A stretch of 64,000 nt of DNA from an uncultured Blautia sp. (GTDB lineage: Bacteria > Bacillota > Clostridia > Lachnospirales > Lachnospiraceae): positions 1-64,000 of the forward strand of contig NZ_CAKRNY010000013.1 in NCBI RefSeq assembly GCF_934371575.1. The letters are read 5' to 3'. The notes beneath the pieces were generated by a model. The model was given only the letters and a program-made list of their open reading frames with translations, was not told the DNA's origin and did no database searches. Below are positions 1,691 to 30,500 of the stretch, piece after piece. Within the stretch, counting starts at the first letter, position 1. Each line of letters starts with the position of its first letter. The position numbers were made by a program, and so were the translations under genes.

Positions 1691-1719
1691 TTGAAATATA
1701 TCAGAACTTTTGCTAAATT
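1691..1719 (+). promoter_or_regulatory. Candidate sigma-A promoter of the NRPS operon
   Basis: TTGAAA at 1691-1696 is separated by 17 bp from TAAATT at 1714-1719, which is preceded by TGC (extended -10). Transcription would begin near 1726. That is almost on top of the upstream GTG codon at 1730, so it favours the ATG at 1784 as the real start of the first gene. Confidence 0.5.
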
Positions 1720-1783: not shown

Positions 1784-3529
1784 ATGGTGGAAAACAGAAA
1801 TAACAGATTGCTGAATGCGAAATTAAACAAGTATATCGTTCCAGGTATTATGATGTCGCTGGCACTTCAGCTTGGAAACATTGTGGACACTATCTTTGTA
1901 AGTAATTTAATTGGTGTAGAAGCAATGTCCGCAGTCACAATGAGTCTTCCGGTTGAAACGATAGTTCAGCTTACCGGTTACTGTCTAGGTGTGGGAGGTT
2001 CCATAGCCGCAGGAAATATGCTTGGTAAACGTGACAAAGAAGGGGCTTCCAGATTGTTTTCAGCCACTTTCATCGTCACACTCGTGGTGGGACTGCTGTT
2101 TTCACTCATTGCATTTCCTGCCGCAGGACCTATTGCCAGATTTCTGGTATCCGGAGACGGAGTTTTGACAACTTATACAAGAGACTATATCCGCATCAGC
2201 ATGTTAGGTGCACCGGTAATCGGAATTGGTCTGATGATGGTAAATTACCTTGGGGTGGAAAATCATCCGGAGCTTGCTTCTGTTTATCTGATCGCAGCCA
2301 ATGTGATAAATCTTGTGCTGGATTACATATTTCTTAGATTTACACCACTTGGAGTCACAGGTGCATCCTTATCAACGGTACTTGGCTTCCTTTTTGCCAT
2401 GGTGGTTTTCATTTTCTATATTCGCTCAGATAAGAGGAATATCAGTTTCGTGCGGCTGAATGCAAAGGATTTCGGAATCGTGAAGGAAGCGGTGGTTACA
2501 GGTGTGCCCATGCTTGTTTTCATGGCAACCAATTTTGTAAAAGCCCTTGGCCTGAACACCATCATCATGAATCAGATCGGGGAAGACGGAATGGCAGTAT
2601 TTACGGTCTGCGACAATGTTTTGCTGATCGTGGAAATGCTTACAGGCGGAATCATTGGTGTAATTCCTAATGTTGCAGGAATTCTTTTTGGAGAAAAAGA
2701 CTATGTGGGAATCCGCGTCCTGTGCAAAAAAATGCTGAAATACAGCTACATCGTGCTGGCAGTCATATTCGTTCTGATCATGCTGTTTACAGAACAGATC
2801 ACCATTATGTTCGGAGGCGGTGGAGAGCTGGGACGGGAGATGGTTCATGCACTGCGTATTTTTGCTCTGTGTGTAGTGCCTTATCTTTGGAATAAATTTA
2901 CCGTAAGCTATTATGAATCTATTGAAGAGACTGCAATTGCAAGCTTTGTTACTTTCCTTGAAAACGCAGTGGCAGTTCTTCCTGCAACATTTATAGGAAT
3001 TTCTATCTGGAAACAGATTGATGGAATCGGTACAAATGGAATTGGTGTTGCATTCGTTGCCACAGAGATTATAACTCTGATCGCAGCCTGGATTTTCCGA
3101 AAGATCAAACACAAAAATTCTACTTTTTATATTGTTCCTGATCAAAATCCCGGAACCAATCTTGATTTTTCCATTAAGAGCACCATGGAAGAAGCAGGTG
3201 CAGTTAACAGAAAAATCCTGGAGTTCTGCAAAGAAAACGGTGTATCTGGAAACAGAGCCAATCTTGCTGCTGTGTGTGCAGAAGAAATGACTGTGAATAT
3301 CATTAAATTTGGTGGAAAAACTTCCAACTGGATCGACATCAACCTTTGCCTGGAGGATGACATTTGCCGGTTAAGGATAAGAGACAACGGAGTGAATTTT
3401 AATCCGCTAGAATACAGCTATGACCATGAGGAGTTTGATATTCATGGAATAGAGCTTGTGAAAAAGGTTTCAAAATCAATGGATTATATCCGCGCGATTG
3501 ATATGAATAACACTATAATATCTTTTTAG
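1784..3529 (+). CDS. MATE-family efflux protein fused to a C-terminal RsbW-like HATPase domain
   Basis: Residues about 1-435 are a MATE (multi-antimicrobial extrusion) exporter with 12 hydrophobic segments, an expected exporter for the NRPS product. Residues about 455-581 are a HATPase_c_2 domain of the anti-sigma-factor kinase type. It has an N-box (VCAEEMTVNI), a G1 box (RDNGVNFNP) and a G2-like box (HGIELVKKV), all positioned as in RsbW/SpoIIAB. The ATG at 1784 is preceded by AAAGGGGA at good spacing; an upstream in-frame GTG at 1730 has no ribosome-binding site. The stop overlaps the ribosome-binding site of the NRPS gene, so the two are tightly coupled. The fusion links export to a partner-switching domain. 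Whether the ATPase domain phosphorylates the STAS protein encoded downstream is inference. A frameshift joining two genes is unlikely because the frame is continuous and the linker is normal. Confidence 0.88.
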   Translation: MVENRNNRLLNAKLNKYIVPGIMMSLALQLGNIVDTIFVSNLIGVEAMSAVTMSLPVETIVQLTGYCLGVGGSIAAGNMLGKRDKEGASRLFSATFIVTLVVGLLFSLIAFPAAGPIARFLVSGDGVLTTYTRDYIRISMLGAPVIGIGLMMVNYLGVENHPELASVYLIAANVINLVLDYIFLRFTPLGVTGASLSTVLGFLFAMVVFIFYIRSDKRNISFVRLNAKDFGIVKEAVVTGVPMLVFMATNFVKALGLNTIIMNQIGEDGMAVFTVCDNVLLIVEMLTGGIIGVIPNVAGILFGEKDYVGIRVLCKKMLKYSYIVLAVIFVLIMLFTEQITIMFGGGGELGREMVHALRIFALCVVPYLWNKFTVSYYESIEETAIASFVTFLENAVAVLPATFIGISIWKQIDGIGTNGIGVAFVATEIITLIAAWIFRKIKHKNSTFYIVPDQNPGTNLDFSIKSTMEEAGAVNRKILEFCKENGVSGNRANLAAVCAEEMTVNIIKFGGKTSNWIDINLCLEDDICRLRIRDNGVNFNPLEYSYDHEEFDIHGIELVKKVSKSMDYIRAIDMNNTIISF

Positions 3530-3541
3530 GAGGTGCAGGAA

Positions 3542-6500
3542 ATGTCTGTGATCAATGAAAAAAGCAATTTTGCTTTTGCGTTTCAACCGGTAACAAAGCT
3601 GTTTGAAGAGCAGGTACGGCTTCATCCTGACAAATGTGCTGTTGCTTCAGCCAGGGAAAGCTTCACGTATGTCCAGCTGAATGAGAAGGCAAACAGAGTA
3701 GCAAATTCCCTCATAGAAAAAGGTGTGGGACGGGAAACAATCGTAGGCATTGTACTGGAACGCTGCTGTGATTTTTATGCAGTGCGGCAGGGTGTTCTGA
3801 AGTCCGGAGGCGCATTTGCCGTGGCAGCACCGGATTATCCTGATGACAGAATCCAGTTTATTTTCGAAGATTCCGGTGCACCGTTTGTTATCACAACAAA
3901 GCAGATTGCAGATGAACGCCGGGAACTGTTTTCAAAGCTTTCCTGCACGGTACTTCTTTTGGAGGAATTGCTTGCCAGCGGGAATACGGAAAATCCGGAT
4001 ACTGTAATCGGTGAACACGATCTTTGCTATTGCATTTATACCTCCGGCTCAACCGGAAAACCAAAAGGTGTTATGATCGAACATATCAATCTTGCGAATT
4101 TCGTAAACCCGGATCCAAGAAATGCAGAAACCTATGGCTATGTAAGCCGTGGAAGCGTTTCCCTTTCCATGGCAGCCATGACATTTGATGTTTCGGTACT
4201 GGAGGAATTTCTCCCTCTTACGAATGGAATGACTGCAGTGATCGCAAGTGATGAAGAGATCCTGAATCCGCTTATGCTTGGTGAACTGATCATAAAAAAC
4301 AAAGTTGATATCATGACCACTACACCGACCTATCTGTCCAATATGATCGATCTTCCTCAGCTTCAGGAAGCTGTTTTCGGAATTAAGGTCTTTGACGTAG
4401 GAGCAGAAGCATTCCCGCCGGCTCTTTACGATAAGATCCGTTCTGTGAATCCGGACGCATATATTATGAACGGTTATGGTCCTACAGAAACCACCATAAG
4501 CTGCACCATGAAGGTGATCACGGAAGGCAAAAATATTACCATCGGAACACCAAACGGGAATGTTAAGGTATATGTTGTGGATAAGGAAAACCGGATCCTT
4601 CCGGACGGAGAGACCGGTGAGCTTGTAATCGCAGGTCTTGGCGTTGGTCGCGGTTATATCAATCTGCCGGAAAAAACAGCTGATGTTTTCATAGAACTGA
4701 ATGGAGAACGGGCCTATAAGACTGGTGATCTTGCGAAAATAAATCCAGAGGGCGAAATCGAATTTTTCGGAAGAATCGATAATCAGATCAAGCTGCGCGG
4801 TCTGAGAATTGAGCTTGGTGAGATTGAAGAGGTAATTAACAGCTTCCCTGGAATTGTGACCAGTATTACCGTTCCTGTGGATAATAAGTATCTTTGCTGT
4901 TACTATATGGCAGACCGTAACATTGATTGCGGAGAAATTACCGCTTATGCGTCAGAATCACTGGCACATTATATGGTTCCGGATGTTTTTATCCAGCTGG
5001 AAAAAATGCCTTTGACACAGAATGGCAAAATCGATAAAAAAGCATTGCCAAAGCCTGTTTCAGAGCCAAAGAATCTGAAAGAGCCGGAAACACCAATGCA
5101 GAAGAAGATTTTCCAAATCGTTGCCCAGGTTGTGGAAAATGACTTTTTCGGAGTGGATACAAGCTTCTATAAAGCAGGTTTGTCTTCCATAAGCGCAATG
5201 AAGCTCTGTGTTCTCATTTCAGATGAATTCGGTGTCACTGTAAAAACAAGCGATATCCACGAGAACAATACCGTGGAGAAGCTGGAAAAATATGTCATGC
5301 TGGCGCCGAAGCTCAGAACCTACGAAAAGAGAGAGGTTTATCCTCTTACCGGTTCCCAGAAGGGTATTTTTGCAGAATGCAGCAAAAATCCTGAGAGTAC
5401 CGTATACAATATCCCATTCCTTTTTGAACTGGATCCTGCAGTGGATACCCGGAAATTATCCGATGCAGTTGCCAGAATGGTAAGCGCCCATTCCTACCTG
5501 CTCACACAGGTATATCTTGACGATAATGGGGAGATGGTACAGCGCCCAGGCAATGGGACTTTTGTGCCGGAAGTGATCGAGACCACAAATGAGAAATTTG
5601 CCAGCCAGAAGGAAAAACTTGTACGTCCGTTTAAGCTGGAAAAAGGATGTCTTCTTCGTGTGGCAATTTATGTGACAGAAGATAAAAAATACCTCTTTAC
5701 AGATTTCCACCATATTATTGCTGACGGCAACTCCTATGATATCATTTTCGAGGATATCAACAAGGCTTATATGGGCGAAAAGCTGGAGAAAGAGACCTAT
5801 ACCGGATTTGATGCGGCCCTTGACGAAGAGCAGCAGATGAAAGAGGGTAAATATAAAAAAGCTGAGAAATACTATGACAGCATTTTTGAAGGAATTGAAA
5901 CGGAATCCCTCCCTATGCCAGACCTGAATGGAAAAGCTCCTGAAAAAGGTTATCTGGAGAAGACCATGGGTATGAAAGAAGAGGCCATTCTTTCCTATTG
6001 CGAGAAGCTGGGTGTTACCCCGAATATTTTATTTACAGGTCTGTTCGGCATCCTTATGGCGAAATACTCCAATGCAGAGGACAGTCTGTTTTCCACTATT
6101 TATAATGGACGAAATGATTCCAGACTTGAGAATACAGTCTGCATGCTGGTAAAAACTCTTCCTGTATATTGCAAATTCGACCCGAAAACCACTGTACAGG
6201 CATATATGGCAGAGCTTTCCGAGCAGATGCTGTCTTCCATGGCAAATGATATTTTCCCATTTTCCGATATCTGTGCCAAATATGGCCTGAATTCAGATCT
6301 TACCTTTGCATACCAGGCAGAGTTAAGCGACGATTACCCAATCGGAGACACCATTGCCAGAGGCCATGACCTTTCCCTGGATATGGCAAAAATGCCTCTG
6401 CTGATCCAGGTAAGAGAGTACAATCACACCTATGTGCTCACTGCAGAATACCGCAGCGACATGTACAGCCAGGCCTTTATTGACGGAATCCTGGATTCCT

Positions 6501-9500
6501 ATGAGGCTGCGATGAGCTCCGCGTTGAAGACAAAACTTGTTTCCGAAATCTCCGTGATTTCCCAGCATGGAGTGGATAAGATTGCAGAATTCAACCATAC
6601 AGAAAGTGAATACGACAGAAACAAAACAATTTCTGATATGTTTGATGAACTGGTGGAAACCATTCCGGACCATACTGCTGTTGTATATAAAGACAGAAAA
6701 TACACTTATAAAGAGCTGGACGAGATCAGCGACAGACTTGGAAAATACATTGCATCCCAGGGAATCGGCAGGGAAGATGTTGTCTCCATCCTGATCCCAC
6801 GTTGCGAATATATGGCAATCGCGCCAATGGGCGTGATCAAAGCCGGTGCAGCATACCAGCCTCTTGATCCTACATACCCGAAAGACCGTCTGATGTACAT
6901 GCTGGGAGATTCCTCTGCCAAGCTGCTGATCGCAGACAGAGAGCTTCTGCCGCTGGTAGACGGATACCAGGGACCTGTATTGTTTACAGATGAGATCCCA
7001 CAGCTGGAAGAGCGTGATGTGGAACTTAGGAAGCCAGAGCTTCATGATCTGTTTATTTTACTGTACACCTCCGGTTCCACCGGTGTGCCGAAAGGCTGTA
7101 TGCTGGAATATGGAAATATCACTGCATTCTGCCACTGGTACAAAAAGTATTACCATGTAGATGACAGCTCCAAAGTAGCAGCTTATGCATCCTTTGGTTT
7201 TGATGCTTCTATGATGGATATTTATGGTGCAATTGCAAACGGCGCAGAGCTTCATATCATTCCTGAAGAGATCCGCCTTGATTTCATTGCACTTCAGCGT
7301 TATTTTGAAGAGAATGGCGTTACCCATTCCTTTATGACTACACAGGTGGGAAGACAGTTTGCGATGGAAATGAGCTGCGAGAGCCTGCAATATCTTTCCA
7401 TAGGTGGAGAGAAGCTTGTTCCTATGGAACCACCCAAGGATTACAGATTCTTTAATGCTTATGGCCCTACAGAGTGTACTATTTTTACAACTGTATTTGA
7501 AGTGGATAAATATTATCCAAACATTCCGATCGGAAAAGCGCTTGATAATTTCAAACTTTATATAACCGATAAGTTCGGCCACCTGCTTCCATATGGAGCC
7601 TGCGGTGAGTTGATGATCTCCGGATGGCAGGTTTCCAGAGGCTATCTGAATAAACCGGAGAAAACCGCGGAAGTTTATACCAGAAATATTTATGATGACA
7701 CCGAAGGCTATGAAGTCCTGTATCATTCCGGTGACGTTGCCAGATATCTTCCGGATGGAAATATCCAGATCATTGGAAGAAAAGACTCCCAGGTTAAGGT
7801 CAGAGGCTTTCGAATTGAGCTTTCCGAGGTTGAGGAAGTGATCAGAAGATACGAAGGCATAAAGGATGCGACCGTAGTTGCTTTTGATGATCCAAATGGC
7901 GGTGGAAAATATATTGCAGCTTACGTGGTATCCGACAGCCAGGTTGACATAAATAAGTTAAATGATTTCATCAAAGAAACCAAGCCTCCATATATGGTTC
8001 CTGCAGTTACCATGCAGATCGACGAGATCCCGCTGAACCAGAACCAGAAGGTAAATAAAAAAGCCCTTCCACTTCCAGAGCGGAAAGTAGAAGAGATCGT
8101 GAAACCGGAGAATGAAACCCAGCAGAAGCTGTTTGACTGTATTGCGGAGGTTCTTGGCTATACCGAATTTGGTATTACCACAGATATTTACGAGGCAGGA
8201 TTGACCTCCATCACTGCGATCAAGCTGAATATCCTGATTTCCAAAGCTTTTGACATTGTGATAAAAACATCTGACATCAAGGATCACCCCACCATTCAGA
8301 TGTTAGAGGGCTTTGTGAAGACTGCCGGAAAAGAAACCAGGAGGGAAATCCAGGAAAATTATCCTCTTACCAATACCCAGGAGGGAATTTTCATTGAGTG
8401 TACAGCCAATATGGGATCCACCATTTACAACATCCCATATCTTCTGAAGCTTGATAAGAAGATTGATCTGGACAAGCTGGCAGAAGCAATTGACTGCACC
8501 GTTGCAGCCCATCCTTATCTGAAAACCCGCCTCTTTATGAGCGATGAGGGAGAGGTTCTTCAGAAACGTGATGATGCTTTAACCTATAAGACACAGATTA
8601 TAAATGGAATGAACCGGGAGACACTGGTTCGCCCGTACATGCTGTTTAATGAGCAGCTTTTCCGCTTTGAAATCCACAGAACCTGTGATGGAAATTACCT
8701 GTTCCTTGACATTCACCATATTATTGCCGACGGTACCTCCCTGGGCATTATCCTGAACGATATCAACCGGGCTTACAGCGGTGAAAAGCTGGAAGTGGAA
8801 GCGTATACTTCCTATGACCTGGCTCTTGATAACAGGGATGCGCTGGCAGGTGATGCTTATAAGAATGCAGAGAGCTACTATAAATCCATTTTTGAAAATG
8901 TGGGCGGAAGCATCAACTTCTATCCGGACAAGAGCGGAGCCGTTCCAACCGCAGAGATGTATCACCGTGAGACCAGTGAGTTCTCCGTACAGGATGTGAA
9001 GGCATTCTGTAAAAAGCACGGGATTACGGAGAACGTATTCTTTATCTCTGCCTTTGGTATCACTCTTGGAAAATACAATTTCAGGAAGAATGCTGTGTTT
9101 ACCACTATTTACCACGGCAGAAACGATTCCAGGCTTTCCGATACCGTGGGTATGCTGGTAAAAACACTTCCTGTTTACTGTGACTTCTCAGGAAGCACTA
9201 CAGATTGCATGAATGCTGTCCAGCAGCAGCTGATTAATTCCATGAACAATGATATTTATCCGTTCTCCCAGATCAGCCATGAATTTAACATTAAGGCAGA
9301 TGCCATGGTGATCTATCAGGGCGACAACTTCGCCTTTGATAATATCGGCGGTGAATATGCACAGGAAGAGCCTGTTCAGCTGAATGCGGCGAAGGCCCCT
9401 GTTTCCATCAGTATTTCAATTGAGAGAAACAAGTTCGTCTTTGAGATTGAGTACAGAGGCGATATGTACAACGAGGAGACCATCAAATACCTTGCAGACA

Positions 9501-12500
9501 ACCTGGAAACAACGGCAGATGGAATCCTGAGAGAATACCAGCCAGAAGAGATCAGGCTGATGTTTGAGGAAGAGACCAAAATGGAAGATGATCCTTCCCA
9601 TGCTGGAAAGACCTTTGTAGACCTGTTCAGGGAAGCTGTTGCAAAATATCCGGACAGACCTGCGGTAAGGGACGGAATGGGCGAGCTTACCTATAAAGAA
9701 CTGGATCATATGTCAGATTATGTTGCCCAGAAGCTGACCGAAAACGGATTCGGAAGAGAGAAAGTAGCCGGTATTTTGTGCGGAAGAACAAAGGAATATG
9801 CCGTAGCTTATATCGGTGTTATGAAAGCTGGCGGCGCATATGTTCCACTGGATCCAGAATATCCGCAGAGCAGGATCGAGTACATGCTGAAGGATTCCGA
9901 AGCAGAAAACCTGCTTGTAATCGACCGTTACCGCAGTCTGGTAGGCTTCTACGACCAGAATGTGATCAGCCTGGATGACGTGGCAGCAGAATCCAAAGAC
10001 TTTGCGCTTTCTGTAGAGCTCACAGCTCCGAAACCAGAGAACCTGGCTTATATGATCTACACATCCGGTTCCACCGGAAAACCAAAAGGTGTTATGCTTG
10101 AACAGCGGAACCTGCTGAACCTGATCGAGTATATCCTTATGACAAGGAAACTGACACCAGATGATATTGTGGCAGAGTTTGCAAGCTTCTGCTTCGATGC
10201 ATCCGTGATCGACCTGTTTGCCCCGCTTACTGCAGGTGCGGTACTGTACATTTTGCCAGAGAGCATACGAAAAGATGCAGTTGCTGTTGGAAAATTCATA
10301 AAAGAAGAAAAAATTACCACAGCTACCTTCCCTACCCAGATGGGCGAGCTGGTTGCAGAGCTTCTTGACGACGCTCCGAGCCTGAAATTCGTTACCCTGG
10401 GTGGTGAGAAGTTCAAATATTACCGGGATAGAACCTACCAGATGATCAATGGCTATGGCCCCACAGAGAATACCGTTTCCTCTACAGAGTTCCTGGTTGA
10501 TAAACAGTACGACAACATCCCGATCGGTAAGTCACAGCGGAATATCCGCAGCTACATTGTGGACGAAAATATGAACCGGCTTCCGGTGGGCGCTTCTGGC
10601 GAGCTTTGCCATGCCGGACGTCAGATCGCAAGAGGATATCACAATCTTCCTGAGAAGACGGCCTCCGTATTTGTGGAAAATCCATTCTCCGTATGCAACG
10701 AGGACAAACGTCTTTACAGAACCGGTGATATGGTCCGCATGAAGGGTGACGGAAACATTGAGTATATTGGCAGAATTGACTCCCAGGTCAAGATCAGAGG
10801 TTACCGTATTGAGCTTGGGGAGATCGAAGGAGCCCTTCTGAAGCATGATCTGGTAAAGAACGCAGCAGTTACCGTAATTGAAAAAGGTGGAAATAAATAT
10901 ATTACTGCTTATTATACTGGTGAAACAATCCCGGAAGATGAGCTGAAGCCATTCCTGAACCCATTGATCCCGGATTACATGATGCCGTCTTTCTTTGTTC
11001 ATCTTGAGGAAATGCCGGTAACCCCAGGCGGCAAGATCGACAAAAAGGCGCTTCCGGTACCAGAAGTAACCACCACAGCCAGCACAGACTATGTAGAGCC
11101 TGTCACGACTGTCCAGATTGCACTTTGTGAAATATTTGAAAAAGCACTTGGCATTGAAAAAGTGGGAATTGAGGACAACTTCTTTGAACTTGGAGGCTCC
11201 TCACTTACTGCATCGAAGGTTGCTGTTATGTGCCTTTCCAAGAATATTTCCATTGTATATGCGGACATTTTCAAATATCCGACTATCCGTGAGCTTTCTG
11301 CAATTGTGGATAATAGTGAGGCATTTGAAAATCCACAGAGTGAGAACGAATTCTCCAGCTACAATTATAACCGGATCCAGAGCGTGATCAGTGGAAATGT
11401 GGAAGAAAACGTAAACCAGGTGACAAAGGAAGAAATTGGTGATATCATGATCACAGGTGCAACCGGCTTCCTGGGAATTCATGTTCTGAAGGCCTACCTG
11501 GATAATTATGACGGCAAGGTTTACTGCCTGGTACGCAAAGGTAAATATGAGTCCATGGAGAAGCGGATGATGCATATGCTGATGTATTACTTCGATAATC
11601 CATGCCAGGAACTGTTTGGCGAGCGTATTATCTGTGTGGACGGCGATATTACTTCGAAAGAACAGGTGGAGAAATTTGCAGATTACAAATTTAACACCAT
11701 CATTAACTGTGCAGCCTGCGTAAAGCATTTTGCTGCTGGTGATGTACTGGAGAAGATAAATGTACACGGAGTGGAAAATCTGATTGAATTCTGTAAAAAT
11801 AACGGACGCAGACTGATCCAGATTTCTACTGTTTCTGTTGCCGGGGAAGGTTCCGATGGTGTTCCGCCAATGTCCAGAGTCTTTAATGAAAACGATCTGT
11901 ATATTGGACAGAACATCACAAATGAATACATCCGCACAAAATTCCTTGCAGAGAGAGCGGTACTGGAAGCGGTTTCCAGTGGGCTTGACGGAAAGGTTAT
12001 CCGTGTAGGAAATCTGATGAGCCGAAATTCAGATGGTGAATTCCAGATCAACTTTATTACAAACGGATTCCTGCGAAGTCTGCGAGGATATGAGGCAGTT
12101 GGTAAATTCCCAATTGGGGCTATGCACGAAGTTACAGAATTTTCACCAATTGATTCTACTGCACTTGCAGTATTGAGACTGGTGCAGACAGACCGGAGAT
12201 TTACCGTATTCCACGCCTGCAACAGCCACCATATCTATATGGCGGATCTGATCTATGCAATGCGGAGCCATGGATTTGACATTGACATTGTAAGTGATGA
12301 AGCGTTTGAGGCTGCGGTAAAAGAATTTGCAAAGAACAGTGATGACTCGGATGTTGTTTCCGGACTGATCGCGTATACGGCTCATAATGAAAATGAGATC
12401 TATACCCTGGATTACAGCAACCGGTTTACAGCACAGGTTCTTTACAGACTGGATTACAAATGGCCGGTTACAGATGACAGATATCTGGAAAGCGCTATTG

Positions 12501-12532
12501 AGGCACTTGACAGACTTGCATTCTTTGATTGA
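3542..12532 (+). CDS. Trimodular nonribosomal peptide synthetase with terminal reductase (A-T-C-A-T-C-A-T-R)
   Basis: This 2996-residue enzyme would assemble a tripeptide and release it reductively as an aldehyde or alcohol. Adenylation domains carry YTSGSTGKPKG (near residue 165), YTSGSTGVPKG (near 1174) and YTSGSTGKPKG (near 2173). Carrier domains carry GLSSISA (near 546), GLTSITA (near 1553) and canonical FFELGGSSL (near 2550). The two condensation domains carry HHIIADG (near 722 and 1724). The C-terminal thioester reductase has ITGATGFLG (near 2636) and a YxxxK pair (YIRTK, near 2795). There is no starter condensation domain and no thioesterase or epimerase. The first two carrier domains have a shortened, atypical serine motif compared with the third. 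The ATG at 3542 follows AGGAGGTG at ideal spacing; the GTG at 3533 lies inside that ribosome-binding site. The enzyme resembles the reductase-terminated NRPS family of gut Clostridia known for peptide aldehydes and pyrazinones. Substrates cannot be called with confidence. Confidence 0.95.
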   Translation: MSVINEKSNFAFAFQPVTKLFEEQVRLHPDKCAVASARESFTYVQLNEKANRVANSLIEKGVGRETIVGIVLERCCDFYAVRQGVLKSGGAFAVAAPDYPDDRIQFIFEDSGAPFVITTKQIADERRELFSKLSCTVLLLEELLASGNTENPDTVIGEHDLCYCIYTSGSTGKPKGVMIEHINLANFVNPDPRNAETYGYVSRGSVSLSMAAMTFDVSVLEEFLPLTNGMTAVIASDEEILNPLMLGELIIKNKVDIMTTTPTYLSNMIDLPQLQEAVFGIKVFDVGAEAFPPALYDKIRSVNPDAYIMNGYGPTETTISCTMKVITEGKNITIGTPNGNVKVYVVDKENRILPDGETGELVIAGLGVGRGYINLPEKTADVFIELNGERAYKTGDLAKINPEGEIEFFGRIDNQIKLRGLRIELGEIEEVINSFPGIVTSITVPVDNKYLCCYYMADRNIDCGEITAYASESLAHYMVPDVFIQLEKMPLTQNGKIDKKALPKPVSEPKNLKEPETPMQKKIFQIVAQVVENDFFGVDTSFYKAGLSSISAMKLCVLISDEFGVTVKTSDIHENNTVEKLEKYVMLAPKLRTYEKREVYPLTGSQKGIFAECSKNPESTVYNIPFLFELDPAVDTRKLSDAVARMVSAHSYLLTQVYLDDNGEMVQRPGNGTFVPEVIETTNEKFASQKEKLVRPFKLEKGCLLRVAIYVTEDKKYLFTDFHHIIADGNSYDIIFEDINKAYMGEKLEKETYTGFDAALDEEQQMKEGKYKKAEKYYDSIFEGIETESLPMPDLNGKAPEKGYLEKTMGMKEEAILSYCEKLGVTPNILFTGLFGILMAKYSNAEDSLFSTIYNGRNDSRLENTVCMLVKTLPVYCKFDPKTTVQAYMAELSEQMLSSMANDIFPFSDICAKYGLNSDLTFAYQAELSDDYPIGDTIARGHDLSLDMAKMPLLIQVREYNHTYVLTAEYRSDMYSQAFIDGILDSYEAAMSSALKTKLVSEISVISQHGVDKIAEFNHTESEYDRNKTISDMFDELVETIPDHTAVVYKDRKYTYKELDEISDRLGKYIASQGIGREDVVSILIPRCEYMAIAPMGVIKAGAAYQPLDPTYPKDRLMYMLGDSSAKLLIADRELLPLVDGYQGPVLFTDEIPQLEERDVELRKPELHDLFILLYTSGSTGVPKGCMLEYGNITAFCHWYKKYYHVDDSSKVAAYASFGFDASMMDIYGAIANGAELHIIPEEIRLDFIALQRYFEENGVTHSFMTTQVGRQFAMEMSCESLQYLSIGGEKLVPMEPPKDYRFFNAYGPTECTIFTTVFEVDKYYPNIPIGKALDNFKLYITDKFGHLLPYGACGELMISGWQVSRGYLNKPEKTAEVYTRNIYDDTEGYEVLYHSGDVARYLPDGNIQIIGRKDSQVKVRGFRIELSEVEEVIRRYEGIKDATVVAFDDPNGGGKYIAAYVVSDSQVDINKLNDFIKETKPPYMVPAVTMQIDEIPLNQNQKVNKKALPLPERKVEEIVKPENETQQKLFDCIAEVLGYTEFGITTDIYEAGLTSITAIKLNILISKAFDIVIKTSDIKDHPTIQMLEGFVKTAGKETRREIQENYPLTNTQEGIFIECTANMGSTIYNIPYLLKLDKKIDLDKLAEAIDCTVAAHPYLKTRLFMSDEGEVLQKRDDALTYKTQIINGMNRETLVRPYMLFNEQLFRFEIHRTCDGNYLFLDIHHIIADGTSLGIILNDINRAYSGEKLEVEAYTSYDLALDNRDALAGDAYKNAESYYKSIFENVGGSINFYPDKSGAVPTAEMYHRETSEFSVQDVKAFCKKHGITENVFFISAFGITLGKYNFRKNAVFTTIYHGRNDSRLSDTVGMLVKTLPVYCDFSGSTTDCMNAVQQQLINSMNNDIYPFSQISHEFNIKADAMVIYQGDNFAFDNIGGEYAQEEPVQLNAAKAPVSISISIERNKFVFEIEYRGDMYNEETIKYLADNLETTADGILREYQPEEIRLMFEEETKMEDDPSHAGKTFVDLFREAVAKYPDRPAVRDGMGELTYKELDHMSDYVAQKLTENGFGREKVAGILCGRTKEYAVAYIGVMKAGGAYVPLDPEYPQSRIEYMLKDSEAENLLVIDRYRSLVGFYDQNVISLDDVAAESKDFALSVELTAPKPENLAYMIYTSGSTGKPKGVMLEQRNLLNLIEYILMTRKLTPDDIVAEFASFCFDASVIDLFAPLTAGAVLYILPESIRKDAVAVGKFIKEEKITTATFPTQMGELVAELLDDAPSLKFVTLGGEKFKYYRDRTYQMINGYGPTENTVSSTEFLVDKQYDNIPIGKSQRNIRSYIVDENMNRLPVGASGELCHAGRQIARGYHNLPEKTASVFVENPFSVCNEDKRLYRTGDMVRMKGDGNIEYIGRIDSQVKIRGYRIELGEIEGALLKHDLVKNAAVTVIEKGGNKYITAYYTGETIPEDELKPFLNPLIPDYMMPSFFVHLEEMPVTPGGKIDKKALPVPEVTTTASTDYVEPVTTVQIALCEIFEKALGIEKVGIEDNFFELGGSSLTASKVAVMCLSKNISIVYADIFKYPTIRELSAIVDNSEAFENPQSENEFSSYNYNRIQSVISGNVEENVNQVTKEEIGDIMITGATGFLGIHVLKAYLDNYDGKVYCLVRKGKYESMEKRMMHMLMYYFDNPCQELFGERIICVDGDITSKEQVEKFADYKFNTIINCAACVKHFAAGDVLEKINVHGVENLIEFCKNNGRRLIQISTVSVAGEGSDGVPPMSRVFNENDLYIGQNITNEYIRTKFLAERAVLEAVSSGLDGKVIRVGNLMSRNSDGEFQINFITNGFLRSLRGYEAVGKFPIGAMHEVTEFSPIDSTALAVLRLVQTDRRFTVFHACNSHHIYMADLIYAMRSHGFDIDIVSDEAFEAAVKEFAKNSDDSDVVSGLIAYTAHNENEIYTLDYSNRFTAQVLYRLDYKWPVTDDRYLESAIEALDRLAFFD

Positions 12533-12560
12533 TTTACGCAACTTAAAGGAGGAAATTGTA

Positions 12561-12863
12561 ATGGAAATTGTAAGTAAGACAGAGGGCAGCAAGGTAACTA
12601 TGGAGATCACAGGATGGCTTGACACCCAGACTGCACCGCAGCTGGAAAAGGAGCTGTCAGCACTTGATCCTGGCACAACAAGCCTGGTATTTGACTTTGC
12701 AAACCTGGAATATATCTCTTCCGCCGGACTTCGTCTGGTAATCGCCGCTTATAAGAAGATGGCAGGCAAGGAAGGCTTCAGGATTGTAAATGTTTCTGAT
12801 GAAGTGTACGATGTTTTCAGCCTTACCGGATTTGACCAGAAGATCAATATTGAGAAAAGATAA
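12561..12863 (+). CDS. STAS-domain anti-sigma factor antagonist
   Basis: This 100-residue protein is a single STAS domain of the SpoIIAA/RsbV type. The conserved phosphorylatable serine motif is present (EYISSAGLRLVI). An AAAGGAGG ribosome-binding site lies 8 bases before the ATG at 12561, 28 bp after the NRPS stop. Proteins of this family bind RsbW-like kinases in the unphosphorylated state and are released by phosphorylation. Here the partners could be the stand-alone HATPase encoded next and/or the HATPase domain fused to the MATE exporter. The gene's position inside the NRPS operon is unusual for a housekeeping sigma regulator. Confidence 0.92.
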   Translation: MEIVSKTEGSKVTMEITGWLDTQTAPQLEKELSALDPGTTSLVFDFANLEYISSAGLRLVIAAYKKMAGKEGFRIVNVSDEVYDVFSLTGFDQKINIEKR

Positions 12864-12919
12864 AAACAGGAAATGGAATTATTATTTACGTCAGGCGGGG
12901 TGATTTTCTGAAAAGCTAT

Positions 12920-13315
12920 GTGGAAGATAAAGCAGAACAGTTTGAGAAATGTCTGGAATTGTCCTGTGATCTATCAGAACTTGAAAAAATAAAAAAATGC
13001 ATCTTTGAGCTTCAGATCGATAACGGAATAAAAAAGAAAATTTTTCTTGCATGTGACGAAATTTTTTCCAATATCACAAGCTATTCCGGAGCAGAGTGGG
13101 TACAGCTTTGCTGTATTAAGAGTGCAGATAAAGTGACGGTTACCTTTACAGATAATGGAATATCCTTCAATCCGCTTGAAAGCAAGGTGGAAATGGATTT
13201 TGAAGATTTCGATCTGGGTGGAATGGGGATCAGTCTTGTGAAAAAATTATGCTCCTGTATCAATTACAGTAACATTCGGGGGGCAAATATCCTCAGTCTG
13301 GAATTTGCAGTGTAA
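12920..13315 (+). CDS. RsbW-like HATPase (anti-sigma factor kinase)
   Basis: This ~131-residue protein is a small GHKL ATPase with an N-box (ACDEIFSNIT), a G1 box (TDNGISFNPL) and a G2 box (GGMGISLVKKL). It closely resembles the domain fused to the exporter in the same operon; both carry an NGxxFNPLE-like segment, so they are probably paralogues. The start is uncertain. GTG at 12920 has a poor ribosome-binding site. An in-frame CTG at 12908 lies at good distance from GGCGGGGTGA, and it overlaps the TGA of a 12-codon reading frame (12873-12911). It probably phosphorylates the STAS protein encoded just upstream. No sigma factor is encoded beside it, so the final target is unknown. Confidence 0.88.
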   Translation: MEDKAEQFEKCLELSCDLSELEKIKKCIFELQIDNGIKKKIFLACDEIFSNITSYSGAEWVQLCCIKSADKVTVTFTDNGISFNPLESKVEMDFEDFDLGGMGISLVKKLCSCINYSNIRGANILSLEFAV

Positions 13316-13322
13316 AAGAACG

Positions 13323-13955
13323 ATGAAATTATACAGAATCAATATTAATAATTTTGAGGATCCTCTGCAAAATGAAAGTCTTCTGGAACTGGTTGGTCCA
13401 GAAAGAAGAAAAAAGGTCATCCGGTATTGCCAGCCGGATGACCGGAAAAGAAGCCTGGGCGCAGGTATTGTGATTAAAACCATTCTTAACGAAAACGGAC
13501 TTTCGGAAAGCAGTCTGAAATATTCCGAAAACGAAAAACCCACGGCGGATAATCTTTTCTTTAACATAACCCATTCCGGTGCTTATGTTGTGGGAGTGCA
13601 GTCAGACTGTGAGGTGGGATGTGACATCGAAAAAATAGATGCGGCACCGCTGGAAATTGCGGAGCATTATTTTCGTCCCGCGGAATGTGAGTATATAAAA
13701 TCTGCGAAGGATAAAAACAGGGCATTTTTTACACTATGGACATTAAAGGAAAGTTATATGAAAATGACAGGACGGGGACTGAGCATTCCATTGGATTCCT
13801 TTGAAATTATCCGGAAGGCAAATGGATATGCCTTGAAGGAATCTTATGGAAAGCCCTGTTTCCTTAAAACCATGGAATTTGATGACCATGTTTTTTCAGT
13901 ATGCAATGAAACTGAGTTTGCATTTGGGCCCGGTGATTTCCATGATATTATGTGA
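13323..13955 (+). CDS. Sfp-type 4'-phosphopantetheinyl transferase
   Basis: This 210-residue enzyme would add the phosphopantetheine arm to the three carrier domains of the NRPS. Family motifs are present: FNITHSG, GCDIEKI (Mg-binding Asp/Glu) and the W-x-x-KES-x-x-K box (WTLKESYMKMTGRG). The ATG at 13323 lies 7 bp after the stop of the ATPase gene, so translation is probably coupled; an earlier in-frame TTG overlaps that gene. It closes the biosynthetic operon. No clear terminator follows before the ribosomal-protein promoter near 14033. Confidence 0.95.
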   Translation: MKLYRININNFEDPLQNESLLELVGPERRKKVIRYCQPDDRKRSLGAGIVIKTILNENGLSESSLKYSENEKPTADNLFFNITHSGAYVVGVQSDCEVGCDIEKIDAAPLEIAEHYFRPAECEYIKSAKDKNRAFFTLWTLKESYMKMTGRGLSIPLDSFEIIRKANGYALKESYGKPCFLKTMEFDDHVFSVCNETEFAFGPGDFHDIM

Positions 13956-23806: not shown

Positions 23807-24349
23807 ATGATTATAGATGAAGTCCTGTATGAGCGCTTCTGGAATGGGGAGAAAACAGCGGCAGATGAGTTGGTGCATAGGCATGGGGATATGCTGGTAC
23901 TGTTTTTGAACAGTTATGTGAAGGATATCCATGAGGCGGAGGATCTGATGATCGAGGCCTTTGCGCAGATGTTTGTGAGGCGGCGGTCGATATCGGAGGA
24001 TGGCAGTTTCCGCGCCTATTTATATAAGACAGCAAGGCGTCTTGCAGGAAATGCGATAAAAAAACACAGAGTATATATTGGATTGGAAGAACTTCCTTTC
24101 GAGCTGCCGGGGGAGGCTCTGGCTGAGACAAGCCTGTTTGAAAATGAACGGAAGAAGCAGCTTTATGAAGCTATGGAAGAACTAAAACCGGAATACCAGG
24201 AAGCTCTGTACCTGGTTTACTTCGAGGACATGAGCTACCAGGGCACTGCAGAAGTCATGTGCAGGTCAGAAAGCCAGGTTAAAAATCTGGTTCACAGAGG
24301 GAAAAAGAGTCTGAAAGAGCTTCTGGGGAAAAATGGATTTGAGTATTAG
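23807..24349 (+). CDS. ECF-like RNA polymerase sigma factor
   Basis: This 180-residue protein has a sigma-70 region 2 (residues about 20-85, with DIHEAEDLMIEAFAQMF) and a region 4.2 helix-turn-helix (EDMSYQGTAEVMCRSESQVKNLVHRGKKSL). It is followed by its own terminator. No anti-sigma gene is adjacent. The next gene encodes a giant secreted protein, and a PrsW-like protease gene lies 9 kb downstream on the same strand, the kind of protease that activates sigma factors by cutting membrane anti-sigma factors. The link is inference. Confidence 0.9.
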   Translation: MIIDEVLYERFWNGEKTAADELVHRHGDMLVLFLNSYVKDIHEAEDLMIEAFAQMFVRRRSISEDGSFRAYLYKTARRLAGNAIKKHRVYIGLEELPFELPGEALAETSLFENERKKQLYEAMEELKPEYQEALYLVYFEDMSYQGTAEVMCRSESQVKNLVHRGKKSLKELLGKNGFEY

Positions 24350-24519: not shown

Positions 24520-27500
24520 ATGAAGAAAATCGAATTAGCAAAAAAGAGCCGGAAACTATTTTCCGCGATCCTGGCAGGAGCAATGCTCACCACATCTATG
24601 ATACCGGAATCTTTTGTCTGGGCGTCTGAGGCAGAGGAAGTACAGGGATTTGGAGACAGTGAGAGCATGGGCTTTGAATCCACACCAGATCCTGTGACTG
24701 GGGATGGTGAAGCTGGGGAAAATCAGGAGATTTCAGATTTTCAGGGTGCTTCAGATATTCAAAATGGAAATGCTATGGTGGAGATGGAAGAAGGCTTTAC
24801 AGACGAGATTGCTTCTTTTGGTAGCAACGGCAGCGATACCCCTGTAGAATCTGGCTTCCAGAGCCTGGCGTCTGCAGAAGAACTGCAGGAGCGAATCAAT
24901 GCCCTTCCAACTGTGGAAGAATTTCAGAACCTGGCGGATGGTACTACAGTAGAAGGAAGCACCTTAAATCAGGCACAAACAGATGTGTATGCAGAAGCCC
25001 AGGATATTGCAGAGAAACTGGATCTGCTTTCGGAAGACGAGCAGGGAATGGTGGATGTAAGTAGGCTGGAAGAGCTGTTTGAGTATTTTAATGGGATGAC
25101 GGAAGAGTTAGCGGATACCAACACAATTTCGCCTGGAAATAATGTAACGATCACTTCTGGAGGAACGTATACGGTACAGGGAGGAACATATCAGCCTAGT
25201 AAGAGTGGAGTCATTACTATTGATACTACAGAGAAAGTTACTCTGGAGATTACTGGAAACATTAATATGCCAGGGAAGGATAATGGCCGTTTTATTAGTA
25301 TAGAAAATGCTTGTAAAGAGTTAACGATTATTAATAAGGATACGGTGAATGTTGATAATAATTCTTTTCTGATCAATAAAAATAAAGATGCAACAGTTAC
25401 TTTTGAGGGCGGTACTTATGAGGGTTTAACGGATGATGGAATTTCCATAATTGAAAACGGAGGGGTTGTCAACCTTAAGAATGTTAAATTTAATGTAACT
25501 GGTTCTGACGATTATGGAAATATTGTATACAATTTTTGGTCCGATCTTGAAGGAACGATAAATATTCAGGATGGAACGATATTGGATAATAATAATAGAA
25601 ATGGAAATCTGCCAAACTATCCTTGTATTTACCTAGGAACTGTCAATATGTATGGCGGAACCATTACATCGTCAGCGGGAAAAGGTTTTAGAGGAATAAT
25701 GGCACTAAAAATTAAAGTTGTTGGCGGAAAAATCTCAAATTTTTATTATGCAATCGATAATAGTGCTGTTGAAAATTCATCAACTACGATTGGAAATGTA
25801 ACCTTTGAAAATAATAATAGCGATATTGTGTTGGGGGGAAAAAAACTTATCATACAAGATGACTTCAAAGGAACTGCAAGTGTTAGTCAAGGTCATTTTG
25901 TTGAATACCCATATATAATTACAATGCCAGGAACATCTCCGGAGATGCGCACAAGGATTACTTATACGGGTGCAGGGGGTAATCCTCATTCAGTAAATTA
26001 TGATACAACTGAAAAGTATCTGTATGCAAGTGATCATGTTCATTCATGGAGTTATTCAACAAGTACTGATAAAATCATTGCAACATGTACGGCGAAGACA
26101 GATTGTGAATTTAATCCCGGTAAATTAAATTTAACCCTGGCAGCAGTCGATGCATACTATTCCGGCAAAGCTTATACCGGAGCAACCGTGACAAATGACA
26201 TTACCTGTCAGACAGGTGATGAAGCGAATATCGTATATTATCTGAAAGATGGCACGAAGACAACCAGCAGCAACAGCGGTGCTGCGAGTGAAGGTGCCGC
26301 ACCGGTAAATTTGGGACAATATACGGTAAAAGCTACAGCTGGCGGCCAGACAATAAGTGATGATTTTGAGATTAAAAAAGCGAAAATTAATCCGACAGTG
26401 ACCATGGATGACTGGACCTATGGACAGAAGGCGAACACACCAAGCATAACAGTTAAGTCAGGTGAAAGTGACATTACAGCTTCTTATGATGCCTCCAGCT
26501 ATACCTGTACATACTACACAGATGCCGGCTGTACAAATATGACGACCACAGCAGATGGCGCAGCCACAAATGGAGGAGTACCAAAGAACGCAGGTACTTA
26601 CTATGTGAAGGCGATTGTGGCAGAGAATGGAAATTATGCAGGGGCAGAAGCGGAAGCTTCCTTCACGGTCGCACCACTTCCGGCAGATCTGATCTGGTCG
26701 AAAACAGATCTGATTTATACAGGAAGTGAGCAGCGTGTATTGGCGACAGTTGCGAATGCAGTAGAGGGCGATTCGTTTGTAATTGTCTATGAAGGCAATA
26801 CACAGACAGAAGCAGGCGACAACTATACTGCAACGGTAACAGACCTTGGAAATGATAACTATACACTTACCGGTGCTACGGGTGTTTCCCAGAACTGGAG
26901 CATCAGCTATCTGCAGAGTTCAGCAGCTGCACAGGTTTCCGGAACGAAAGGTAACAATGACTGGTACGTAAGCCCTGTGAAACTTGTACCGGACAGTGGA
27001 TACCAGATATCGACAGATAAAACAGACTGGAAGGATTCGATTGGGGATTACACAGATCAGGGAGAACAGTCTGCAGGATATTATCTGAAAGAAACTGCAA
27101 CAGGTGCTGTTACCGATAAAAAAACAGTAACCTTCAAAATTGATACTGAAATGCCATCAGGCAGTATCCAGATCAGAGAAAATACATTTGACAGTGCCCT
27201 GAAGGATATTACCTATGGTTACTGGTTCAAAGATAATGCTTCTGTTGACATCACAGGAACAGATGCTGCCAGTGGAATTGCTTCTGTAGAATACCAGGCG
27301 GTCAGCGCAGAGGAATCCTATGATGTAAACGGTACATGGCTGCCATGGAATGCAGCGGAGAAACTTTCTCTGACAGAAGGCGGCAGGTATGTGATCTATG
27401 CCCGTGTTACAGACAAGGCAGGAAACCAGACGATCGTCAATTCGGATGGGGTAGTTGTATTTAAAGATTCCGTAGTAGTGGATTCTTCTATCGACTACAC

Positions 27501-30500
27501 AAGAACAACTAAGACTTCCGTGGACGCGGAAGTAATGCTGAATGGAAATACAGTAGCGTCTGTAAAAAATGGAGAAACCACTTTAACTGCAGGAAAGGAA
27601 TATACAGTTTCTGCAGATAAAATTACATTCAGTGGAGACTATCTTGATACTTTGGCAGTTGGATCTTATACAATGACTGTTGCATATAATCTCCAGGGAG
27701 TAACGGAGTATAAAGGCGGTGACAAACCTGCCGACAGCCAGATTGCAGTAAATGTGAAACGTCGGACTGCTAATATAAAAATCACAAGTGTTCTGGATAA
27801 AGAGTATGACGGACAGCCTGCAGATCTGGCATATACAACAAACAGCAATGCCAAAGTAAAAGTTGAGTACAACGTAAATGGAACCTGGCAGACAGAAGCT
27901 CCGACACATGCTGGTACTTATGAAGTAAAGGTAAGTGTACCTGAAAACGGTGATTTTACCGCTGCTTCAGATACGAAGACCTATACCATTAAGCCAAGAG
28001 AGGTGGTAATCTCTGGAATTGTCGCAAATGAAAAGGTATATGATGGAACTGCGAATGCAGAACTGGATTACAGCAAAGCGGTATTTACAGGCTTGGTTAA
28101 GGGAGACACCCTTACGGTAAGTGCGGAAGGCACATTTGCTGACAGTAATGCAGCCAAAGGAAAAACAGTTACGATCACAAATCTGATACTGAGCGGCGTT
28201 TCAGCAGATAACTATGTCCTGGCTGCTAACGGACAGCAGACAAGTACCACAGCTGCTATCAATCCGAAAGAGATTACCGTTACCATCACACCAAACGGTG
28301 GAATCTACGAAGGAACCATTACCCCGGCAACAGCCAAATTAAACGGACTGGTAGGAAAAGATGATCCTGCAATCATCCTGACTTATACTGGTACAGCAAA
28401 TGATGGTACACCAGCGGATGGAAAAGTACCTTCTAAGGCAGGAACTTATACGGTGACTGCTTCCATCAACGACAGCAACTACAGCCTGAAAGAAGAGGGA
28501 CGTTCTGCTAAATTTATAGTAGAAAAGGCATATCCACAGTTAAGCATTTCCGCTGTGACAGACAAGAATTATGGAGAAGAAGCCTTTAAGCTGGGAGTAA
28601 GCAATAAAGGTGACGGTTCTAAATCTTATGCGAGCAGTAATGACAAGGTTGTAAAGGTCGATGAAAATGGAACCGTAACCATTGTCGGGGCTGGGACAGC
28701 AACATTAACAGTTTCCCTTGCGGAGTGCGCGAACTATACTAAAGATCAGAAAGAAGTTACCGTAACTGTTAAAAAGATTAATCATAGCCTTGTGGTAACG
28801 AAGCTTACTTATGAAGTAACTTACGGAGATCCAGTGTTCAAAATTGCAGCAAATGCAGAAGATACAGAGTCCGGTATTCATTTTACAAGTGATAATGAAT
28901 ATGTTGCCACAGTAAGCGCGGATGGAACAGTAACCATTAAAAATGCAGGAACCGCTAAGATTACAGTTTCCATGGATGAGAGCCAGAATTTCCTTGCAGT
29001 TTCCAAAGAAGTGGTTGTAACCGTTGCTCCGAAAGAAATAACCGTAACCCCAGACAATGCTTCCAAGGTTTATGGGGAAAGTGATAAGGAATTTACTTAC
29101 ACGCCAAGCGGCCCGGTAGGAGAAGATACCCTTTCCGATATCACACTGTCAAGAGCAGAGGGCGAGAACGTTGGAACTTATGAGATTACAGCAGCCCAGA
29201 AAAAAGGTGCGAACCCGAATTATAATGTGAAATTTAATAAGGGAACCTTTACGATCAGTCCGAAAGAGATCACCGTTACGATCACACCAAACGGCGGAAC
29301 CTATGAAGGTGCCATTATCCCTGCAAACGCAGCCCTGAACGGACTGGTTGGAGAGGATAAGCCGGAGATTACTTTGACTTATACTGGCAAAGCAAACGAC
29401 GGAACAGAAGTAAATGGAACTGAGATACCAGTTCTTGCAGGAACTTATACGGTAACAGCTTCTATTACAGACAGCAATTATCGTTTGAAAGCAGAGGGAA
29501 CAACGGCTGAGTTTACTGTTGCGAAAGCGTCTCCAGGGCTTAGTGTATCGGCAGTAGCAGATCGGAATTATGGCGGGGAAGCTTTTAAGCTGGAGGTAAG
29601 CCATAAAGGTGATGGTGTGAAGGCTTATACAAGCAGTGATGACAAGGTTGTTACGGTAGATGAAGCTGGAACCGTAACGATTGTTGGAGCTGGAACAGCA
29701 ACATTAACAGTTTCTATTGCGGAGACTGCAAACTATACATCAGACCAGAAAGAAATTACCCTTACTGTTAAAAAAATCAATCATAACTTTGTGGTAGATA
29801 GAATTGATTATGAAGTAACATATGGAGACCCAGCTTTTAAGATAGCAGCAAATGCAGGCGACACGGAGTCTGACATCCGTTTTACAAGTGATAACGAAAA
29901 TGTTGCCACAGTAAGCAAAGACGGAAGTGTAACCATCAAAAATGCAGGAACCGCTAAGATTACAGTTTCCATGGATGAGAGCCAGAATTTCCTTGCAGTT
30001 TCCAAAGAAGTGACTGTAACTGTTGCTCCGAAAGAAATAACCGTAACCCCAGACAATGCTTCCAAGGTTTATGGGGAAAGTGATAAGGAATTTACTTACA
30101 CTCCAAGCGGCCTGGTAGGAGAAGATACCCTTTCCGATATCACACTGTCAAGAGCAAAGGGCGACAACGTTGGAACCTATGAGATTACAGCAGTCCAGAA
30201 AAAAGATGCGAACCCGAATTATAGTGTGAAATTTAACAAAGGAACATTTACGATCAATCCGAAAGAGATCACGGTTACGATCACACCAAACGGCGGAACC
30301 TATGAGGGAAACATTATCTCAGCAGCTGCTGTTTTAAATGGTCTGGTAGGAGAGGATAAGCCAGAGATTATTTTGACCTATGCAGGCAAGGCAAACGACG
30401 GAACAGAGGTAAATGGAACTAAGACACCGGTTCTTGCAGGAACTTATACGGTAACCGCGTCTATTACAGACAGCAATTATAACCTGAAAGCAGAAGGCAC

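Follow-up and report, generated by a model that had tools for sequence, protein, structure and literature searches.

A 64,000-nucleotide stretch of DNA from an uncultured Blautia sp. (contig NZ_CAKRNY010000013.1, positions 1 to 64,000; hereafter the window) carries a gene cluster built around a three-module non-ribosomal peptide synthetase (NRPS) that ends in a reductase domain. The NRPS gene is preceded by a gene for a MATE family exporter, the C-terminus of which is fused to a domain with the fold of RsbW and SpoIIAB, and is followed by genes for a STAS protein, a free RsbW-like HATPase and a 4′-phosphopantetheinyl transferase (PPTase). The exporter fusion lies beside NRPS domains at nearly all the places where it has been found. 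The fusion and its partner-switch genes, more unusual than the NRPS itself, lay outside the initial annotation, which covered the NRPS only. We propose, as a plausible reading and with reserve, that a small peptide aldehyde is both made and exported by the operon, with a partner switch gating its export. What is said below of function beyond domain content is inferred. Loci found in other genomes are given as L numbers and the genomes themselves as G numbers.

The tailed exporter and its association with NRPS genes

The exporter gene (1784..3529; like the other features of the cluster, on the plus strand) encodes 581 amino acids. The start at 1784 was preferred to the mechanical one, a GTG at 1730, because the 99% identical protein P0002 has 581 residues. 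Membership in the MATE family is indicated by two MatE stretches (E 1.5e-27) and by Foldseek matches to PF0708 and DinF-BH with a TMt of about 0.8. The fused C-terminal domain (3116..3526) matches HATPase_c_2 with E 1.4e-5 and 25.5 bits, slightly below the Pfam cut-off of 27.4. Its fold is that of SpoIIAB/RsbW, and the closest folds are anti-sigma factors, including those in the SpoIIAB-SigmaF and UsfX/anti-sigma-SigF complexes; matches to SiaB, LvrC and histidine kinases were counted only as the wider GHKL fold. The N and G1 boxes of an RsbW-type kinase are present, with a shortened G2 box, and the ATP-site residues E57, N61 (N-box), D90 and G92 (G1) are invariant in all 14 aligned tails, which are 29-90% identical to that of the window. 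The fused domain is easily missed: among the matches listed, the HATPase label is found on just 10 of 120 exporter relatives and a permissive tail motif set on 120 of 120.

The association of the tailed exporter with NRPS genes was followed from both sides. A search led by the NRPS gave 19 loci, 14 of them with a tailed MATE gene; the remaining five contigs (L004, L008, L015, L016 and L019) break off within the NRPS on the exporter side. One of the 14, L005, has its exporter tail split by an in-frame stop. A search led by the MATE protein (E<=1e-60), run on three evenly drawn samples rather than on all genomes, found matches in 6/200, 10/398 and 8/391 genomes at 25 distinct places, three of which (in G001, G003 and G005) double as NRPS-led loci. 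The tail is present at all 25 places. NRPS domains lie within 1.5 kb of the MATE gene in 22 of them, and in 24 when wider regions are considered, one of these 24 (L050) having a reductase remnant only. None of 30 other MATE loci used as controls, from 12 of the same genomes, matched NRPS, STAS or HATPase, the flanks here being about 1.5 kb around half a gene and thus shorter than in the test loci; one control locus (L084) gave a match to the PPTase query. In a phylum-wide profile search a cut-off of E<=1e-90 left only G001 among 398 genomes; it is so strict that the result has little bearing on spread.

The fusion gene of L050 (4824-6844) adjoins a short reductase-domain remnant, and this locus is apparently a decayed NRPS cluster in which the exporter has been kept. 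L048 encodes two MATE-kinase fusions (4457-6199 and 11669-13516), one adjoining a STAS gene and the other a ligase-like gene and an NRPS.

The NRPS and its predicted product

The NRPS frame runs uninterrupted from 3542 to a stop at 12532 and encodes 2996 amino acids. The ATG at 3542, with AGGAGG immediately 5′, was taken as the start; the mechanical start is a GTG at 3533, from which the residue numbers of the motifs below are counted. The order of adenylation (A), thiolation (T), condensation (C) and reductase (R) domains proposed in the initial annotation, A-T-C-A-T-C-A-T-R, was confirmed by Pfam stretches (three AMP-binding, two Condensation, three PP-binding and one NAD_binding_4) and by motifs in the same order. 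The first module comprises A1 (approximately 3593..5047) and T1 (5105..5296, FYKAGLSSI), the second C1 (approximately 5333..6562), A2 (approximately 6593..8062) and T2 (approximately 8078..8302, IYEAGLTSI), and the third C2 (8351..9532), A3 (approximately 9608..11062) and T3 (approximately 11093..11332, DNFFELGGSSL at residue 2548). They are followed by the terminal thioester reductase (11423..12529, NAD_binding_4 E 1.6e-32) with TGATGFLG at residue 2641 and YIRTK, of the YxxxK type, at 2799. The A-domain motifs lie at residues 168, 1177 and 2175, and the condensation motif HHIIADG, of the HHxxxDG type, at 726 and 1728. For the T-R end the PDB gave matches to 6vtj (E 2e-98) and to 4f6l, the reductase of AusA (E 6e-51), and the 87% identical NRPS of L001 has the same domain order by tblastn.

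The protein begins with an A domain and has no starter C domain, and R takes the place of the thioesterase, a family absent from the 10 Pfam families reported for the NRPS; the earlier claim on both points is thus borne out. Since only two Condensation-type stretches occur, a separate epimerization domain is absent, and the Pfam match 'Epimerase' (PF01370) corresponds to the NAD-binding part of the reductase. All catalytic and carrier motifs expected of a reductase-terminated NRPS with a free-amine start are intact. The GLSSI and GLTSI carrier motifs had been called atypical, and they are, yet they keep the serine and belong to the family rather than mark a defect: of the 51 hits to one regular expression across relatives, 21 read GL[ST]S[ILV]. 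Inactive T domains were therefore ruled out, and the reductase, with its YxxxK in place, is intact as well. The three-module layout had also been singled out as worth product work; three-module members are not rare. Among the best 120 of 7419 relatives, 119 match the NRPS query at 84-96% identity and 98-100% coverage, so that rarity of the layout was dismissed; the remaining one is a 4000-residue protein with 58% identity.

Pocket residues of the A domains, numbered by what we take to be GrsA positions, were mapped by columns through alignments with PDB LgrA and an alignment of 97 domains. The codes obtained, DVLTDGGIS (A1), DAMFSGAIF (A2) and DAITTGGVS (A3), retain most of the residues read before by rough alignment and differ at position 278 of A2 (F, not S) and of A3 (T, not A) and at 299/301 of A1 (D/G, not F/V). 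The code of the middle module is widely shared: of 39 loci represented by A-domain rows (the window included), 31 have DAMFSG and three more near variants (L014, L048 and L061); neither was found in the other five (L049, L055, L056, L059 and L060). Residue 2 would probably be hydrophobic and common to most of the family. The codes of the first and last modules vary among the loci. Asp235 is kept in A1 of the window, which argues for an α-amino acid as residue 1, and in the first A domains of L001, L002, L003, L005, L045, L046 and L051, eight loci in all. In 19 others (L006, L007, L009-L014, L017, L018, L047-L049, L055, L056, L059, L062, L065 and L066) it is replaced by V or I, which suggests starters other than α-amino acids, so that the free-amine start would mark the group of the window. 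The first A domains of the rumen group read VAAFMGNGT and similar, without Asp235. The pocket DMKN[LM]GTVS is found in the final A domain of L049, L055-L059 and L066, and its Lys at 239 would go well with an acidic residue, for instance Glu, giving possibly a ruminopeptin-like product (ruminopeptin is described in PMC12327764).

The likely product of the window NRPS is a linear tripeptide aldehyde. The free-amine tripeptide aldehyde predicted in the initial annotation fits the domain order, the intact reductase, the AusA-type relatives and Asp235 of A1; the cyclisation suggested along with it is less probable here than with dipeptide aldehydes, since the ring closed from a tripeptide would have to be a nine-membered imine.

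Partner-switch genes and the proposed gating of export

Downstream of the NRPS gene lie genes for a STAS protein of the RsbV/SpoIIAA type (12561..12863; E 3.2e-12 for STAS in a longer open reading frame from 12387, with an ATG at 12561), for the free RsbW-like HATPase (12920..13315, 131 amino acids, HATPase_c_2 E 4.9e-8) and for the AusB-like PPTase (13323..13955, mechanical start TTG at 13305, ACPS E 2.4e-19). STAS domains were found at 27 places in the loci and the window, and all 27 have an acceptor-type serine, read by eye, which we take to be equivalent to Ser58 of SpoIIAA. The loci also encode 17 SpoIIE-type proteins, 13 of them with a C-terminal HATPase; their SpoIIE domains were found with a custom profile rather than with Pfam, except that of L003. 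In all 17, hydrophobic segments occur close to the N-terminus and around residues 185-265, which suggests an extracytoplasmic sensor.

A SpoIIE-type phosphatase was not found in the window or in L001, L002 and L004. In the nearest relatives, L003 and L005, the HATPase is fused to SpoIIE, and the window HATPase is 55% identical over 122 residues to the C-terminal end of the 654-residue SpoIIE-HATPase protein of L003. The free HATPase of the window is thus probably the remnant of such a sensor, the phosphatase part having been lost in this clade; an ancestral free HATPase gene is also possible, given separate short copies in L045, L048, L052 and L058. L001 and L002 keep the STAS gene; the DNA covered at these two loci showed no free RsbW-like gene, so that the exporter tail is the only local STAS partner seen there.

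Clustering of open reading frames of at least 90 amino acids from 41 loci and the window, with limited flanks and with families judged by eye, gave as recurring families the NRPS, MATE, STAS, SpoIIE, PPTase and short HATPase proteins. Four further families reach three loci (ABC-transporter-like, a 260-residue protein, a ligase-like protein of 460 residues and a helix-turn-helix-like one). Among the families present in at least three of the 41 loci none looks like a sigma factor, and no tailoring gene was recognised. Of the 18 window proteins scanned with Pfam only one, encoded about 10 kb away at 23807-24349, matches a sigma factor.

In the mechanism that we propose for the operon, the PPTase would prime the NRPS, which would join three residues and release them reductively as a free-amine tripeptide aldehyde; this step is strongly supported. 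Export of the aldehyde would be the task of the MATE protein, which we regard as probable. Gating of export by a partner switch is the more tentative step: the cytosolic RsbW-like tail of the exporter would bind the STAS protein in one of its phosphorylation states, and that state would be set by the free RsbW-like kinase, together with the membrane SpoIIE phosphatase in relatives. In the lineage of the window the phosphatase is missing and just the free kinase-type gene appears to be left. Extended to the whole family, the fused tail would be the direct target of the STAS/SpoIIE switch, and a signal from outside would gate the release of the inhibitor post-translationally, without a sigma factor; this extension is possible, if rather doubtful. 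A tailed transporter kept with STAS and often with SpoIIE genes across many clusters would be a concrete control point, and partner switching, if the proposal is true, would extend from sigma factors to a membrane transporter.

A number of observations speak against export gating. By profile, no STAS gene was found in 12 loci with a MATE gene, some of which are cut (L007, L009, L010, L017, L046, L050, L060 and L062-L066); that of L057 was seen by tblastn only, and none was found in L008, L015 and L016, all of them contained within the NRPS. L053 has a MATE-kinase fusion (159-2314) and a STAS gene on a 7.2-kb contig without NRPS; its genome contains a second MATE-kinase copy, with NRPS, at L057. 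STAS and tail co-diverge by a Pearson partial r of 0.337 (n=22, permutation p 0.0005), but the Spearman value is 0.053 (p 0.28) versus 0.262 (p 0.009) for the control pair STAS-MATE, and over nine dereplicated loci 0.191 (p 0.19) was obtained; as the signal is lost with rank statistics and dereplication, co-divergence was dropped as proof of partnership. The same gene set could also serve ordinary control of transcription, the STAS protein, the free RsbW-like kinase and the exporter tail titrating a sigma factor whose gene lies elsewhere, with the MATE protein as membrane anchor or as sensor of intracellular product. We consider this rather unlikely, although the closest folds of the tail are anti-sigma factors, one open reading frame of L050 (2976-3509) resembles an ECF (extracytoplasmic function) sigma factor by eye, and a comparable gene association in Methanobrevibacter ruminantium was taken, in the account given by Leahy et al. 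2010 (PMC2812497), as sensing and control of NRPS expression. It fits poorly with a tail joined to the exporter itself at every one of the 25 places and with the lack of a recurrent sigma-factor family noted above.

The tail might also have degenerated or serve assembly or stability without any switching, with the STAS and RsbU proteins acting elsewhere in the cell. Its G2 box is shortened (DIH--GIELV vs GGMGISLV), the tails of L057, L058, L066 and L048_4457 lack the N-box Asn and those of L058 and L048_4457 lack the G1 Asp as well, so that kinase activity is doubtful in some members, and the window clade has no SpoIIE protein. This alternative is nevertheless unlikely in view of the ATP-site residues invariant in 14 of 14 tails as little as 29% identical to that of the window, and of the STAS gene retained beside the tail in L001 and L002, where no other RsbW was found. 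As for the cargo, a product other than the plain tripeptide aldehyde (an alcohol after further reduction, a cyclic imine or thiazolidine, or a peptide with a non-protein residue) would agree with pocket codes that are not known to fit any substrate and with the unusual Asp at 299 of A1, a feature faintly reminiscent of the Cys code of ACV synthetase. No tailoring gene was recognised among the recurrent families, however, and such a product is improbable, the AusA-type relatives being described as releasing aldehydes (outlined in PMC8210680 and PMC12153313).

Related systems, kinship and flanking genes

The reductase-terminated NRPS family from the gut studied by Guo et al. 2017 reportedly comprises 47 biosynthetic gene clusters. 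As summarised in two reviews (PMC11257994, PMC8210680), it yields pyrazinones, dihydropyrazinones and dipeptide aldehydes with inhibitory action on host proteases. The window cluster shares with it the gut habitat and the presumed aldehyde release; it differs from the products as the reviews describe them, dipeptide aldehydes, in having three modules. AusA of Staphylococcus, outlined as A1-T1-C-A2-T2-R with no starter C domain or thioesterase (PMC12153313), follows the same free-amine/reductase logic and is likewise accompanied by a PPTase, AusB. The best stretch of the AusA model covers residues 6-1595 of the window protein, which has one extra module and other accessory genes; the protein scores below the curated cut-off of the AusA equivalog NF047350 of NCBIfam (1643.1 bits vs 2500), and the PPTase below that of the AusB model (68.4 bits vs 225). 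The window NRPS is a three-module relative of these known gut and aureusimine reductase NRPSs. Proposed targets of gut peptide aldehydes are host proteases (discussed in PMC8210680), and by analogy the likely role of the window product is protease inhibition in the gut; the kinase-like domain on the neighbouring exporter raises the possibility of a direct switch on the release of protease-blocking aldehydes in gut bacteria.

The mru0068 cluster of M. ruminantium M1, as described by Leahy et al. 2010 (PMC2812497), contains MatE, anti-sigma factor antagonist and serine phosphatase genes beside its NRPS, and these genes were read as serving sensing, regulation of expression and export. Unlike the window cluster it is archaeal and described with a thioesterase (with a reductase in the supplementary legend), and no mention of an exporter-kinase fusion was found in its description. 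Relatedness of bacterial and archaeal rumen NRPSs is supported by the outline in PMC8241843. In the openly accessible literature found, control of peptide-aldehyde release occurs only as this prediction for one archaeal cluster (PMC2812497, as described there). The gene association is thus partly known already; within that literature the fusion, its regularity and the idea of gating are new.

With the RsbU-RsbV-RsbW and SpoIIE-SpoIIAA-SpoIIAB systems the cluster shares the protein types, the fold of the tail and the STAS serine; it differs in the fusion of one RsbW-like copy to an exporter, in having no adjoining sigma factor in the window and in the absence of SpoIIE from the window clade. 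ClbM, the colibactin exporter, is likewise a MATE protein tied to an NRPS product, and its structure (PDB 4z3n) is among the fold matches; the listed chain has 431 residues as compared with 581, kinase-fold tail included, in the window exporter.

Kinship of the NRPS and of ribosomal protein L1 disagree. Identity of L1 to the window protein is 99% in G004, 96% in G001, 80% in G002, 65% in G005 and 62% in G003, and identity of the NRPS in the same genomes is 91% (L004, part only), 87% (L001), 86% (L002), 80% (L005) and 79% (L003). In G065, L1 is 87% and the NRPS domains only 55-71% identical. Such a pattern is as expected of horizontal transfer. The neighbours of the cluster are rpmG-nusG in both the window and L004. 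G001 has it on a different contig, and 19 kb around the rpmG of that genome are free of MATE, STAS and PPTase genes. A comparison of the exporter with phage records gave 47 matches, none of which reached 60% identity or covered 80% of the exporter; the 20 listed are 21.6-26.5% identical, and this line was dropped.

A promoter-like site 5′ of the exporter gene (1691..1719, TTGAAA-17-TAAATT, 9/12, with TG before the second hexamer) is weak, since three such sites were found versus 1.2 expected. Further upstream (43-1568) lie the end of an OppF-like ATPase gene and a gene for a 261-residue secreted-looking protein without a match. On the 3′ side, rpmG (so named by eye) comes after the PPTase gene, and then nusG and the genes for L11 and L1. 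The sigma-70-family regulator encoded at 23807-24349 is directly upstream of a gene (24520-31863) for a 2447-residue surface-type protein with MBG_2, YDG, Big_2 and CBM_X2 domains.

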